Assembly (NCBI RefSeq): GCF_011174705.1
Contig: NZ_JAANIJ010000001.1
Span: 1,240,001-1,304,000 of the forward strand
Origin: Tessaracoccus coleopterorum
Lineage (GTDB): Bacteria > Actinomycetota > Actinomycetes > Propionibacteriales > Propionibacteriaceae
Direction: 5' to 3'
DNA: 64,000 bases
Shown: positions 4,801 to 41,564 of the stretch, in pieces
Position numbering within the stretch: position 1 is the first letter of the stretch
Layout: the number at the start of each line of letters is the position of its first letter
Program-made: the position numbers and the translations under genes
The notes under the pieces: generated by a model
Told to the model about the DNA's origin: nothing
The model's input: the letters and a program-made list of their open reading frames with translations, nothing else
Database searches by the model: none

Positions 4801-7800
4801 GCGTCGGTGAGGCCGGCCGGGTCGCGGTTGAGGTCGCCGAGCTTGACCGCGGCGGCGCCTCCCCGCCCACGACGGCCCCTCCTCGAGGGCAAGGCCGCCG
4901 TCCGGGTCGCTCCAGAGCTCCCAGGTGGTGTCGTCGCCGTCGGTGATCAGCGCGGAAGGCCACGCGACGGTGGTGGCGTCGACCCAGTGGCCGAGGAACT
5001 CACCGGTGCCCGCGAGCGGAGGATCCTCCACGACGATCTCCAGGGTGTGGTCGGACAGGGTGTAACGGAACGTGACCAGCTTGCCCGCCGCGACGGTGAA
5101 GCCGTAGTTCGACCCGCCGGGCACGCCGCCGACGCCGTAGTTCTCGTCCCACGAGCGGCCGTGGGCGACCTTCACCTCGTAGGCGCCGGCCGGGATGGCC
5201 GACGACGACCAGGTGAGGACCCCGTCGCCGTCGGCGTCGAACATCAGGGTGCGCAGGCAGTCGGGCTGCCAGTCGCCCGGGCAGCCGACGGCCGCCTGGA
5301 ACGAGCCGGCCAGCGTGACGACCGGCCCCTGTGCGGTGTTGAAGAACGCGTGGCTGACCGGGTCGTAGTAGAACGTCACTGCACCAGGGCGACGAGCGTG
5401 TAGGCGACGTTGTCGCCGTTCGGGACGCCGCCCGAGCCGTAGTTCACATCCCACGAGCCGCCGACGGCCACCTTGTACTCGAAACTGCCGGCGGGCAGGT
5501 CGAAGGTGCCGATGTAGAGGCCCGAGGCCTCGTCGAGGTGAGCAGGGCGTCGGCGCAGTCGGGCTGCCAGTCGCCGGGGCAGCCCATCGCCGCGTTGTGG
5601 CTGCCGGGCACCGTGACCATGGTGCCGGGATCGACGACCGGGCCCTCCGGTGCGGCGGCGCCGAGGTCGGTGCCGACGACGGCCGTGGTGGAGGCGGCGA
5701 CCGCCGAGCCGGAGGCGTCGACGGAGACGGCGCGGACCTCGACCACGGTGCCCGCGGGCAGGTCGCCGAGGTCGGCGAACACGCGGGCGCGTCGGTGGTG
5801 GCGGTGCCCAGCGGGGTGTAGTCGGCATCGCCGAGGGCGCGGTAGGCGAACGAGGTCTCGGCCCAGCGGTGGTCGGCGACGTCGGCGGTGACGGGAATCA
5901 GCCCGTTCTCCGGGGCGCCGGTGACCACCGTGATCGCCTGCGCGGCGCCGGCGTCCGCGACGGGGCGCCCGCCTTGTAGGCCACGGCACCGAGAGCGGGG
6001 ATGGTGAGCAGGACGGTGCCGTCGGCGTCGGCGGTGACCGGGGCGGTCGCTCCGTAGAGCGGCGCGTAGGAGGCGCCCGGCGTCAGGGTCGTGATCTCGA
6101 CGCTCGTCGCCTCGGTCGCATTGTTGAGCGCCACCAGGTGCTCGACCTTCTCTTCGCGGTCTACCCGCGCCAGGGCGTAGACGGCGCCGTCGGAGTGGAG
6201 CTCGATCTGGGCCCGGTGGCGAGCGCAGGGTGAGCCGAGCGGAGCGCGCCGAGCTCGGCGATGGTGGTGTAGAGCTCACCATCGGTGCCGAAGTGGTCGC
6301 CGGTGCCGTAGGCGGAGCCGTCGAGGAGGGTGTTGTCGAGGTAGCTCGGCACCTCAGAGGCGAACATCGACTCGCGGGCGTCCTTGTCGTTCCGGTCTCC
6401 GATGAAGCCCTGCTCGTCTCCGTAGTAGACGACGGGCTGGCCGCGGGTGAGGAACATCAGCTCATGGGCGAGCGTGCTGCGCTCGAGCTTGCGGTCCGCG
6501 GTGTCGAGCAGGTAGCCGATGCGGCCCATGTCGTGGTTGCCGAGGAAGGTCGGAAGTGATGCGGCCGAGCTGTGGTCGGTGGTGTAGCGGTCGTCGTCGG
6601 CGAACAGCGCCGAGAGGCCCTTCGCGGTGAAGCCCTTGGCGTAGTTCAGGGCGGAGGCCTGGTAGGCGAAGTCGAGCACGGAGTTCATGTCGGTGTCGCG
6701 GACGTAGGGCGAGAGCAACTTCGCGTCGGCGTCGTAGACCTCGCCGAACATGAAGAAGTCGGGTTGGAGGCGGCGGTGTGGTCACTGATGCGGCGGGTGA
6801 ACTCCTGCCAGAAGGTGAAGTCGACGTGCTTGGCGGTGTCGATGCGGAAGCCGTCGATGCCGAGATCGGCCCATGCCTCGTAGATGTCGCTCATGCCGTC
6901 GACCACGATCTGGTTCTCGGTCATCAGGTCGTCGAGGTCGGCGAAGTCCATCGTGGTGGCGGCCTCACCGGCCGGCCAACCAGGGTCGAAGCCGCGGTTG
7001 TGGTAGAGCGTGACGTCGTTGAGCCATTCCGGATACCTGGCGTCCTCCATGCCCGGGGGACCTCCGGGTCGTACGGGAATGACGTGTCGTCGGGTTCAGC
7101 AGCGGCATGGCCCGGTTGCCCGCCGCGTAGTCGGAGGGTCGAACGGGTTGCCGTCGACGTCGACGTACGGGCTGGTCGCCTTGGTGACGTAGGGCGGGTT
7201 GGTGCCCTCGTGTCCGGCGTAGTAGATGACGTCTGCGGTGTGGTTGGCGATGATGTCGAAGTAGACCTTGATGCCGCGCTCGTGGGCGGCGTCGATGAGG
7301 TCGCCGAGCTCGGCGTTGGTGCCGAGATGCGGGTCGATCCGGGTGAAGTCGGTCACCCAGTACCCGTGGTAGCCGGCCGAAGCTTCCGTCCCGGCGCCCT
7401 GGACGGGCCGGTTGACGAACGACGGGGTGAGCCAGATGGCGGTGGTGCCGAGGCCCTCGATGTAGTCGAGCCGGTCGTGCAGGCCCTGGATGTCGCCGCC
7501 GTTGAAGAAGCCCTTGTCGGTGGGGTCGAAGCCGGTGACGAGCCGGTCGGTGCCGTCGCAGTCGACGGGGAGCACGCCGTCGGCCCCGGCGTGGCCGGTT
7601 GCGATGCAGGAGTCGTTGGCGGTCGATCCGTTGTCGAAGCGGTCGGTCATCACGAAGTAGAAGTTGTTGCCCGCGCCTTCATCGGCGAACGGCGCCGCGA
7701 CGAGCGCGTCGTCGGCTGCCTCGTAGCCGCCCGGGAGGTCGGCGGCCGCGACGGAGACCTTGTTGGTGGCGTCGTCGAAGCTGAAGGTGAGCTTCCGGGT

Positions 7801-26607: not shown

Positions 26608-27000
26608 GCGTGAATGCTACGTCACCGGCCACCGTGCCCGACCGGGCCGCCCGCCGCCAGGCTACCCGCACCACCGTCCAGCCCACGCGGGGTGTCAACC
26701 CACCGAAGATCGCAGTTTGATAACAAACGCCGACCCGATGGCCAGGTGTTGGTCACAGCCGGGAAGGAAAGGCATTGAACCTTGTCAACGTCGGATCATC
26801 GCCGTGTTGACCGACCTCCTGCGCGCCGGGCATCCCCACCGGAGCCCCGGACGGACGGCCCCCGCTGCCCCGACGGGGGACACCCTGCCGGCCCCAGGCC
26901 GGAACATGGGTGTAGAGTCCGAAATCAGGAACACCTAAACATAGGTTCCTATCCACTACGGATCGTCGGGCACGTACCTGCCCGTGGAAAGGAATGTGGC
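26608..27000. other. 393-base intergenic region with two inverted repeats
   Basis: Divergent promoter region between the DedA gene and the sugar ATPase gene. Two symmetric sites are visible: GTTTGATAACAAAC (26715-26728), perfect arms GTTTG/CAAAC around ATAA, and AGGAAC (26927-26932) with GTTCCT (26945-26950), the latter 50 bp before the ATPase start. The first could be a repressor operator; no known consensus fits clearly. No convincing gene was seen here. Confidence 0.45.
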
Positions 27001-37436: not shown

Positions 37437-37510
37437 GCATGTAATTGAACCATGAACTACCAAACGGGGCCCCGACCGCGGCGACCCACCGCCGCTGCTA
37501 GGCTCCACAG

Positions 37511-37595
37511 CGTTCAGGGCTAGAACCGGGTGTGATCCCGGGCTGACCCGCAACCGTATCCACCTAGGCGTGGGAGCCGGACCGACCCCTGAGCG
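37511..37595 (+). ncRNA. Cobalamin riboswitch (short actinobacterial form)
   Basis: Closing stem CGTTCAGGG (37511-37519) with CCCTGAGCG (37587-37595), one G-U pair. The core GGGTGTGATCCCGGG and CTGACCCGCAACCGT match the conserved GGTGnnAnTCCgnngCtGnCCCGCaACtGT region. A small arm CCAC...GTGG is followed by the B12 box, GGAGCCGGACCGACC. It lies 88 bases before the large leucine-rich-repeat gene. Consensus judged by eye; a covariance-model search would settle it. Confidence 0.85.
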
Positions 37596-37607
37596 ATACA
37601 GATGCTG

Positions 37608-37675
37608 CCCGCGCGGAATCGGGAAGCGCGGGGACCTCCATGCGCCGACCTTCGCGGGCCTGATCCGCAAGGAGG
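37608..37675 (+). promoter_or_regulatory. Likely expression platform of the cobalamin riboswitch
   Basis: Directly after the aptamer, CCCGCGC (37608-37614) pairs with GCGCGGG (37626-37632). ACCTCC (37634-37639) can pair with the GGAGG ribosome-binding site (37671-37675) eight bases before the ATG at 37683. Control by hiding the ribosome-binding site when cobalamin is bound is inferred. Confidence 0.5.
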
Positions 37676-37682
37676 CCGCCGA

Positions 37683-40600
37683 ATGGCGCCATTCAGAGGA
37701 CTGGTCGCGGGACTGCTCGCCAGTCTATTCCTCATCCACGCCCCGTCGCGCAGGCCGACGGCCCGACCTTGGCCACCGCCATGCCGGACGCGGCGCTGCG
37801 CGCGTGCGTCACCGACAAGCTCGGGCTGCCCGCCTCAGCGGAGCCGACCCCGCCCAGCTCGCGACGGTGACCGACCTGTCGTGCACGGGCGCGGCATCGC
37901 CGACGCCACCGGCGTCGCATCGCTGCCCAACCTCACCAAGCTCTTCCTCGGCAACAACAACCTGACGACCGTCGCGCCGCTCGCGGCGGCCGGGAAGCTC
38001 CTCACCCTGGGGCTGGCCGACAACTCACTGACCGACATCTCCCCGTTGGCCGCGCTCAGGGAACTCGGCAACCTCGACGTCGCGGGAAACCGGCTGAGCG
38101 ACGTGTCGGTGCTCGGCTCCTTCCCGAAGGCACCCTCTCGGGCACCCGGCACGGGCAACGGGTGGCCGGCCACCCCGCCACCGCGGGAGAGGCCACGCTC
38201 GCGCCAACGCTCGTCGGGCGCGCCGGTGGCACCTTCACCGCCACCCCTCCGGCGGGCGTCACCATCACCGGAGGGCGGGTGACCTACGACACCGCAGGCA
38301 CCTACACCTGGGCCTTCCGCGACCAGGACGACTTCTACTACAACGGCTCGGTGACCGTCGAGGTGACCGCGGCCCAGGCCACGCTCCTCCGGACGCGGCG
38401 CTCAAGGGGTGCGTCAACTCGCGGCTCGGACGGGCCTCCGACGCGGAGCCGAGCGCCGACGATCTGGCCGGGCTGACCGGCACCCTGACCTGCAACGGCA
38501 AGGGTGTCCGCGACCTCACCGGCATCGGGCGCCTCACCGGGCTCACCACCTTGACGCTCAACAGCAACGAGATCGGCAACGTCGCCCCGTTGGCGGGCCA
38601 CCCGAGCCTGGTGACCGTCAATCTCAAGGACAACGCGATCAGCGACCTCTCGGGCCTCGCTTCGCTCCCACGCCTGAAGACGCTCGACCTGACGCTCAAT
38701 GACGTCATCTCGCTCGCCACGATCGGCCGCAACTCGACCCTGTACACCCTGCGGGTGGGGCAGACGGCATCCTCCGGGCACGCCAGGCTCACGTCGCTGG
38801 CGGGGATCGAGCGGCTCACCGGGCTGGGCGTGCTCAACATCAACCACACGGCCGTCACGACCCTGGCCCGCTCGCCGGTCACCCGCACTGACGACCCTCG
38901 ACGCCGAGAATGCGCGGCTCACCGACATCGGGGCACTGGGCAGCGTGGCGACCCTGAACAGGGTGCGCATCTCCGGCAACCACCTCCATGACCTGTCCGC
39001 ATTGGCCACCGTGCCGACCGGCAACATCACGGCCACCGGTCAGGTGCTCACGGCACCGACCGCCCAGGCGACGGTGGCCACCGACGCCCGCGGGTCACCG
39101 ACCGGGACAGGGCGGCCCACTTCGCGACGCCTCCGGCCGGGATCACGCTGACCGACACGACGGTCACCTTCGCGGAGCCGGGCTCCTACACCTGGACCTT
39201 CGAGGTCAGGGCCAACACATGGGAGGCGGCCTACTTCTCGGGCACCTTCACCCAGCAGGTCACCGAGGCCCCCACCCCATCGTCGGGGTCGACATCCCCG
39301 ACGCGGGGTTCCGGGGCTGCCTCGCCGACGCCGTCGGCGTCGGGGACGGGGACCCGATCACGGCCGCCCAGCTGGCCGCCCTCACCGAGGTCAGCTGCGT
39401 CGCCAGGTCCATCACGGATCTCACGGGGCCGAACACCTCACCGGCGCCACCAACCTGATCCTGAGCAGCAACCGGATCGCCGACCTGGAGCCGCTCTCGG
39501 GCCTGTCGGGCCTGGAGCGGCTGCTCCTCCCCGGCAACTCGATCGCCGATGTGGCGCCGTTGGCCGGCCTCAGCAGGCTCGCCGTGCTCTCGCTCAGCCA
39601 GAATCCGGTGGCCTCCATCGCCGCCCTCTCCCGTTGACCGGCCTGACCGACCTCGAGGTCACCCAGCGGGCGCGCCACGACCACGCCGACCTGACAAGCC
39701 TCTCCGGGGTGGAGACCATGACGGGGCTCCAACGGCTCGTGGTCAACAACTCGTCGCTGAGCGATCTGACGCCCGTCGCCGGCCTCACGAACCTCACGCG
39801 GCTCTACGTCTCAGGCAACGCGATCAGCGACCTCACCCGCTCGCGGGACTGACGCGGCTGACCCACCTGGGCCTCGGCTCCAACGAGGTCGAATCCGTCG
39901 CCCCGCTGCGCGCACTCACCGCGCTCGAGTCGCTCGATCTCGCGACGAACCGGATCGCCGATCTTTCCCCCTCGGAGGGATGCCGAGCCAGGCCTACATG
40001 GGCCTGAAGGCGCGCTGGCAGGCGGCGACGGTGGCGGAGGTGCCCGCGGGGATGAGCGTCGCGGTCCCCGCGTCCTCGACCACGACGGGTCCCCGTCGCG
40101 GTGCAGCCGCCGGCCGGGGTCACCGTCGACGGCGCGCTGGTCAGCTACCCCGCGCCCGGCAGCTACCCGTGGACATTCTCGGCCCGCACCGACCTGGGGG
40201 AACACTTCTCAGGCACCGTGACCCAGCTGGTCGGCGAGCCGGTGGCCGACCCGGCGAACATCCCCGACCCGGCGCTGCGCGCCTGCGTCGCGGACGCGGC
40301 CGGGTTGGCACCGGGCGCGGTCCCGACCACGGCGCAGGCCGCGGAGGTCACGTCCCTGACCTGCCGTGACGCGGGGATCTCCGACCTGACCGGGCTGGAT
40401 CTGCTGACCGACGCGACCGCCCTCGATCTGGCCGGGAACCCGTTGCCGGGCCTCGGGCAGATCGCGTCCCTGACCGGCCTGGAGCGGCTCGACCTGAGCC
40501 GCACCGGCCTCTCCAGCCTCGCGGGCCTCGGGGCGCTGTCGGCTCTCGAGACCCTCCGGGTCGACGGAAACGCATTGACCAGCCTCGTGGGGGCTCCCAC

Positions 40601-41419
40601 CGGGCTGGGCACGCTGAGCGCGCTCGACCAGACCGCCGCGTTGCCGGACACCGCCGGCGACCTCGTCGTGCCCGTGCCGAGGCTGACCGGGCGCGGCGGC
40701 GTCACGTTCGCCGCCGTCTCCCCGACGCGGCGGAGCCCGCCGAGGGCGGTGTCGTCTTCCCGTTGGCGGGCCGGTACCGGTGGGTCTTCGCTTCCGACGA
40801 CGCCACGTTCACCGGGGTGCTCACGCAGCGGGTGACCAGCGACCGGGTCGACGAGGGCGTCAACGAACCAGCTGCGGCCTGCGTCGCCGCGGGCAACGTC
40901 TGGGTCACCGTCGAGCGGGACACCGGGCTGCGTGACGGAGGCTGTGCCACGCAGTTCCGCACGGGCCTCGAGGCGCTCGCGAGCGCCGGGTTCACCGCGA
41001 CCACGAGCGGGTCGCTCCTGACGGCCATCGACGGGTACCCCGGGCGGGCTCCGGTGACCACTACTGGTCCTACTGGCACGCCGAGCCGACCGGCGACCCG
41101 GTCGGGTACCCGTGGACCTACGCCGACCGCGGCCCGGCCGGACACGCGCCCCGCGCGGGCAGTGTCGAGGGCTGGCGCTACGTGGAGTGGGTTCCCGGCA
41201 CGGATGCCCGGCACCGAGCTGGTCGCTCTCCGCGTCCCTGACACCCACCCCGGCTCCTTCCCCGACGCCGACCCCGTCGCCGACGCCGACCCCGTCGGTG
41301 ACCCCGGCCCCATCGGCGGCACCCAGCCCGACGGCCTCGCGGGGGCCGTCAGTCACCCCGGCCCCACCGCACCCGCATCGGGCCCGGCACGTCCGGGCCT
41401 CCCGTCCACCGGATGGTGA
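37683..41419 (+). CDS. Secreted multi-block leucine-rich-repeat surface protein under B12 control (frameshifted)
   Basis: About 1,245 residues. Signal peptide MAPFRGLVAGLLASLFLIHA. Four similar blocks follow, each with a Cys-pair cap (PDAALRACVTD, then LATVTDLSC), internalin-type leucine-rich repeats (LTKLFLGNNNLTTVAPLAAA) and an Ig-like strand ending in a GTYTWAF-type motif (38,310; 39,190; 40,170; 40,780). After the last block comes CVAAGNVWVTVERDTGLRDG, then DHYWSYWHAEPTGDP and GSVEGWRYVEWVPG, a Trp-rich EGW module, a Pro/Thr stalk (PTPAPSPTPTPSPTPTP) and a terminus PGLPSTGW. The EGW module and riboswitch suggest a cobalamin-capture role; that is inference. LPSTG lacks a following membrane helix. 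About fifteen frame corrections. Confidence 0.78.
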
Positions 41420-41437
41420 GCGGCCGGGGTTGAACGA

Positions 41438-41467
41438 ACGGGCGGGCACCTCCGGGTGCCCGCCCGT
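41438..41467 (+). terminator. Intrinsic terminator after the LRR gene
   Basis: Perfect 13-bp stem (ACGGGCGGGCACC and its complement) with a TCCG loop, 18 bases past the stop of the leucine-rich-repeat gene. Confidence 0.9.
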
Positions 41468-41564
41468 TGCGTCCACGGATAGCCACCCTCGTCGAGGCGC
41501 GATCGCCCGCCCCGAGATCCGTGCCGGGCACCACCGGCGAATGCCGCACTGCCATATTTCGGCC

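Follow-up and report, generated by a model that had tools for sequence, protein, structure and literature searches.

Within a 64,000-nucleotide stretch of the Tessaracoccus coleopterorum genome (the window; contig NZ_JAANIJ010000001.1, positions 1,240,001 to 1,304,000), a cobalamin riboswitch lies directly upstream of a gene for a leucine-rich-repeat (LRR) surface protein, both on the forward (+) strand. The C-terminal domain of the protein has a predicted fold like that of the beta domain of the vitamin B12 carriers transcobalamin and intrinsic factor, and genes encoding this domain follow cobalamin riboswitches repeatedly across Actinobacteria. We consider it probable that riboswitch and protein together form a B12-repressed cell-wall trap for cobalamin or other corrinoids.

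A cobalamin riboswitch and the gene behind it

In a 501-base scan with Rfam family RF00174, the window element scored 22.6 bits (E 9e-4) and missed the 31.5-bit cut-off; the short elements of relatives score 22–41 bits. We therefore built a lineage covariance model, R1, from 43 riboswitch cores of relatives with the window excluded from training (alignment A4, 43 of 50 motif hits, 7 being left out by choice). R1 matches positions 37502-37603 at 56.0 bits (E 1.1e-16 in 64 kb), with the next best match in the window at 10.7 bits, and a chance match is thereby rejected. The riboswitch proposed in the initial annotation, of the RF00174/RF01689 clan, thus falls short under the Rfam model and stands under the lineage model.

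All of the parts named in that annotation (closing stem, core and B12 box) are present. Stem P1 pairs CGTTCAGGG (37511-37519) with CCCTGAGCG (37587-37595), as indicated by folding and by covariation: across 44 sequences, the mean helix score was 16.15 with the own partner vs 12.90 with swapped partners, and 0 of 5,000 permutations reached the own value. Inside P1, the inner helices covary among relatives, including the core hairpin CCGGG/CCCGG (37526-37541) placed by alignment to R1. The core CTGACCCGCAACCGT (37543-37557) has many invariant columns in A4 and holds loop L5 (CCCGC, 37547-37551), whose complement covaries; the B12-box-like AGCCGGA (37575-37581) is conserved in A4.

Downstream, comparison with the related locus L077 reveals a P13-like hairpin, CCCG-CGCGGAAT-CGGG (37608-37623), with a loop able to kiss L5; this loop is identical in L077 and similar in L073, L089 and L144. 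Over 57 elements, the mean own L5-L13 match was 3.60 bases vs 3.36 when permuted (0 of 2,000 permutations reached the own value), a small effect. The window pair shares four complementary bases, and the best-scoring hairpin there is a longer alternative overlapping the P13-like one. A putative -10-like box, TAGGCT (37499-37504), sits directly 5' of the riboswitch, and relatives including L055 and L065 have a similar TAGnnT at the corresponding position. Between riboswitch and gene, CCTCC (37635-37639) is a candidate anti-Shine-Dalgarno for the GGAGG (37671-37675) within the Shine-Dalgarno sequence AAGGAGG (37669-37675). The adjacency of riboswitch and gene reported earlier also held, with a gap of 87 bases from P1 to the ATG at 37683 instead of the 88 given.

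The gene itself (37683-41419), delimited by translation and by an intact relative, is broken by indels in the assembly: it has no uninterrupted frame, and about 17 frame changes were counted by eye. We take these frame changes as sequencing indels, because the assembly has a completeness score of only 60.93%. When the L077 protein was compared with the window by tblastn, its repeats gave overlapping matches from which the number of frameshifts is not cleanly countable. Several other genes in the window also seem cut by single-base indels. The intact relative, L077:2830-6984 from a Propionibacteriaceae metagenome-assembled genome, has the same layout, with a riboswitch at 2651-2750, a start at 2830 and 1,384 residues ending at 6984.

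The window translation opens, by eye, with a signal-peptide-like segment, MAPFRGLVAGLLASLFLIHA... (37683-37770). A Pfam scan of 8 stop-free pieces (E up to 1) found LRR families in 6 of them, with LRR_4 down to 3.8e-13, and comparison with L077 suggests four LRR/immunoglobulin (Ig)-like blocks with approximate borders at 37780-40850. The same layout is found in the full-length relatives P0002 and P0004, in which LRR/Ig blocks precede the same kind of end domain. The signal-peptide protein with four LRR/Ig blocks described in the initial annotation is supported in its start and layout; it is not encoded by a single open frame here, and its C-terminal domain had been overlooked. This transcobalamin-beta-like (SLBB) domain is split over two frames at 40880-41220, where the pieces at 40880-41107 and 41038-41190 share 61% and 49% identity with the L077 domain. 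A Pro/Thr/Ser-rich linker (41221-41398), a C-terminal LPSTGW with stop (41399-41419) and, directly 3' of the stop, a terminator-like hairpin (41438-41468; fold of 41425-41480, z -4.89) complete the gene.

The beta-like domain and its linkage to riboswitches

Because the window domain is split between frames, the domains of relatives P0058 and L077 were modelled in its place. The closest solved structures to these models are B12 carriers, apart from 3u7z, which is top by Z and tied with haptocorrin and transcobalamin. We therefore predict a transcobalamin/intrinsic-factor beta-domain fold for the end domain. In the L077 model, a helix (42-48) is followed by short strands (53-55 and 59-62) that form a beta-hairpin insert after the helix, as expected for the transcobalamin-like clade of SLBB domains. 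Two glycines, one following strand 2 and the other preceding strand 3, are conserved in this clade (Burroughs et al. 2007, PMC1796856). In our alignment A5, G42 is invariant and G64 near-invariant, which makes them candidate counterparts of the published pair.

Sequence identity to the human transcobalamin beta domain (5no0, 5np4) is 22%, and the window protein has no alpha/alpha domain. A two-domain transcobalamin identity was rejected, since the window protein and L077 carry LRR rather than an alpha/alpha toroid. For P0024, the best match among Protein Data Bank (PDB) sequences was a squalene-cyclase-type match for its toroid (8paj, E 3.8e-5), and no transcobalamin was found. The SCO2322 family, NF040672, matches the domain in L055, L058, L061, L069 and L073, at best with 30.6 bits and well under its cut-off of 85; a search of the literature on the SCO2322 locus and its neighbours returned nothing relevant. 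A phage origin has no support, as the phage records searched (viral contigs and plasmids being outside that search) held no match to the L077 domain.

Linkage to the riboswitch recurs across lineages. One peptide pattern from the domain alignment identified 32 loci in genome contigs, from Propionibacteriaceae to Salinispora and Micromonospora, and in 30 of them the model finds a same-strand match no more than 3.4 kb upstream. In a first locus set, entered by hand and including the window and its own genome, 23 of 25 gene instances are riboswitch-linked at distances up to 4.3 kb. R1 had been trained on many loci of these two sets, their elements having been found by motif script; among loci unseen by the model, a riboswitch was present in 5 of 6 (6 of 7 genes), with L143 left uncounted as the same contig and protein as L081. 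The rows are not independent: one record appears as both L061 and L080, and Salinispora species account for six of the 32 loci. With Rfam cut-offs alone, an upstream same-strand B12 riboswitch appears in 8 of 13 loci scanned, missing L077, L079, L080, L081 and L083. Loci lacking an upstream riboswitch are L062 and L070 in the 25-instance set, L083 and L101 among the 32 (L101 has a downstream one) and L145 in the unseen set. Genomes G000-G024 each carry 1 to 12 RF00174 elements (E up to 0.1).

Three architectures follow these riboswitches: the domain alone, the domain with a toroid (L058, L142) and LRR with the domain (the window, L055, L077, L140, L144). Since beta domains without LRR follow the same riboswitches in L056, L061, L064, L141 and L146, we rejected the LRR as the constant B12-linked part and assign that role to the beta domain. 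The same LRR-free loci make it unlikely that the window protein is mainly a B12-regulated adhesin, with LRR blocks binding a surface or another cell and a beta domain that only senses or anchors, as do the three beta-type domains that L140 appears, by eye, to carry on one LRR mount. What speaks for an adhesin is that LRR makes up the bulk of the protein and that L055 looks internalin-like in its LRR part (NCBIfam NF033189, E 2.8e-44, yet far under its cut-off). The LRR part is probably a mount and not a B12 binder.

Individual loci show further variation. L140:3548-8092 (minus strand) encodes 1,514 residues behind a riboswitch, with LRR blocks, its beta-like domains in a row and an LPKTGV end, and L142:2568-4646 (minus strand), also behind a riboswitch, joins beta domain and alpha/alpha toroid (by eye) in one chain, in the order opposite to human transcobalamin. 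In Salinispora loci L095, L096, L098, L102, L103 and L106, the domain gene is preceded by two copies of the riboswitch, spaced by about 820 bases. Genes that by eye are MoxR-, DUF58- and VWA-like adjoin beta-domain genes in L059, L060, L067 and L069. A module with motifs like NGRRW-TTCEPYS-RCRT-FNNLTY is C-terminal in otherwise unrelated Tessaracoccus surface proteins (L055, L059, L060, L073 and L144; P0014, P0020 and P0023).

A C-terminal LPxTGx tail and putative partners in the genome

Sortase substrates normally need a membrane segment after LPXTG. In the window gene, the stop comes one residue after the motif, and across all frames of the 120 bases that follow, no 19-residue stretch has a mean hydropathy above 0.0; the label of an ordinary sortase substrate was rejected because the hydrophobic segment and charged tail after LPSTGW are absent. 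Such tails are widespread in the genus: a DNA pattern for P-G-L-P-x-T-G-x-stop gave 125 matches, not all confirmed in frame, in 25 of 31 genus genomes (one example is G000:C1:1962912-1962938), vs 2 for the reversed pattern. Of 17 tails matching this pattern or a somewhat relaxed version of it, 14 are followed within 120 bases by no hydrophobic frame (mean hydropathy >=1.6); the other 3 (L003, L016, L114) have a downstream hydrophobic stretch of 1.7-2.0, judged by eye to be the beginning of the following gene. Sortase-family genes were found in each of the 25 genomes searched, with two in the own genome. DsA1 of Cutibacterium acnes similarly has an LPXTG, at position 411 of 432, that lacks both a membrane segment and a charged tail (PMC5527093), whereas the window motif is followed by one residue and the stop. 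DsA1 is a near precedent for the LPxTGx tails, whose use by sortase is putative.

The own genome carries three domain loci, each behind a riboswitch, together with a toroid gene, energy-coupling-factor (ECF) transporter genes and cob genes. ECF-type transporter genes also occur at some domain loci, above the Pfam cut-off at own-genome L075 and below it at L069. By eye, the cob and ECF loci of this genome seem fragmented into short frames as well. Elsewhere in the window, an msiK RNA element lies at 26940-26996 (57.0 bits).

A probable B12-repressed cell-wall trap

The trap reading rests on what is observed at the locus and in its relatives: a riboswitch with covarying stems, the gene order, the presence of the domain, the repeated linkage and the match of the relatives' models to known structures. 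At low intracellular B12, the aptamer would be empty, the Shine-Dalgarno sequence free and the protein made. With B12 bound, P1 and the L5-L13 kissing contact would form and translation would be blocked, possibly through the candidate anti-Shine-Dalgarno. One of the two sortase-family enzymes may then fix the exported protein to the wall via its C-terminal LPSTG, with the LRR/Ig blocks as a long stalk. At its end, the beta domain would bind a corrinoid and hand it over to an ECF-type transporter, for example one behind another B12 riboswitch of the genome; a separately encoded alpha/alpha-toroid protein perhaps assists the handover. The initial annotation had guessed at B12-repressed corrinoid capture at the cell surface, and the relatives' transcobalamin-beta fold and the riboswitch linkage lend support to that guess.

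Several points weigh against this interpretation. Both B12 binding by the domain and B12 repression of the gene are predictions. The fold match comes from relatives in place of the window's own domain, and Foldseek gives it moderate TM-scores (0.46-0.54 for ranks 1-18, by query length). Matches of PF14478 and PF01122 to relatives are weak and below cut-off, and a search of PDB sequences with the domain profile found no transcobalamin, so the transcobalamin link rests on fold. At the RNA level, besides the sub-threshold RF00174 score, a whole-window Rfam scan at cut-offs listed only tRNA and msiK RNA and not the RF00174 element, the leader folds no more stably than shuffles (z 0.10), and the anti-Shine-Dalgarno pairing was recognised by eye only. 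Full transcobalamin requires its alpha domain, which the window protein lacks, for sub-picomolar affinity (PMC5599065). Finally, the tail has no membrane segment, no ECF gene turned up next to the window gene (where no profile search was made), and the own genome has cob genes, some behind a riboswitch, whereas B12 synthesis is described as usually missing from bacteria with domains of this kind (PMC1796856).

We regard it as improbable that the beta-grasp domain binds another riboswitch-linked ligand, such as cobinamide, a lower-ligand base, cobalt or a corrinoid-carrying protein. A common fold proves no function, a range of ligands is predicted for SLBB domains (PMC1796856), and the depositors of 3u7z labelled it a putative metal-binding protein; set against this, the closest solved structures besides 3u7z are B12 carriers and the switch is of the cobalamin family. 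Human transcobalamin beta also binds cobinamide, at the same site (PMC5599065), so a different corrinoid would be a variation on the trap reading. That the gene is a decayed pseudogene and its riboswitch a relic, as the lack of a continuous open frame might imply, is very unlikely given the incomplete assembly, the cob and ECF loci fragmented as sequencing indels would give, the identity to L077 retained by the domain pieces, and the tail and terminator-like hairpin still in place.

On its own, the beta domain of human transcobalamin still binds cyanocobalamin, though with lower affinity than the full protein, and it associates with the alpha domain solely in the presence of B12 (PMC5599065). 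A bolder and doubtful extension of the trap is a split carrier, in which B12 binding to the bare, stalk-borne beta domain would recruit the own-genome toroid protein and the closed carrier would feed the ECF transporter; the stalk would be fixed by its minimal six-residue LPxTGx tail, used by sortase without a membrane anchor, as a new genus-wide form of sorting signal.

The kind of system is already known. Bacterial proteins of the transcobalamin-like SLBB clade were predicted in 2007 to scavenge B12; as here, they share the fold family, are exported, in some cases with a Gram-positive anchor motif, and occur with Ig or toroid partners and in CbiO/CbiQ-like operons (PMC1796856). That clade was described from low-GC Gram-positives, planctomycetes and euryarchaea, whereas the present set is actinobacterial, with an LRR mount, riboswitch control and a host with cob genes; the main text of PMC1796856 does not contain the words riboswitch, leucine or LPXTG. 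BtuG of Bacteroides is likewise a surface B12 capture protein from riboswitch-controlled loci, but it is a lipoprotein of a Gram-negative with other partners, a likeness in role (PMC6143338).

Our searches found nothing in the open-access literature on an LRR-mounted, riboswitch-controlled actinobacterial beta-domain form, and for cobalamin riboswitch with leucine-rich repeat only a flavobacterial paper. NEAT-LRR haem-capture proteins such as Bacillus IlsA place a nutrient-binding domain on an LRR mount under control of that nutrient, with haem and iron control where we propose B12. A match of L055 to NCBIfam NF033190 covers the LRR part (best stretch 201-300) and lies far under the cut-off of that family. 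Of the novelty claimed in the initial annotation, the LRR-mounted, riboswitch-controlled actinobacterial form is new, and the general idea had been predicted.

To our knowledge, surface B12 capture in thick-walled bacteria is less understood than the BtuB and BtuG of Gram-negatives. A domain of the human B12-carrier type linked to B12 riboswitches across Actinobacteria provides a ready set of proteins to test, and bears on the origin of animal transcobalamin and on whether bacteria with B12 synthesis genes compete for B12 too. The tail finding, if true, would broaden what counts as a sorting signal.
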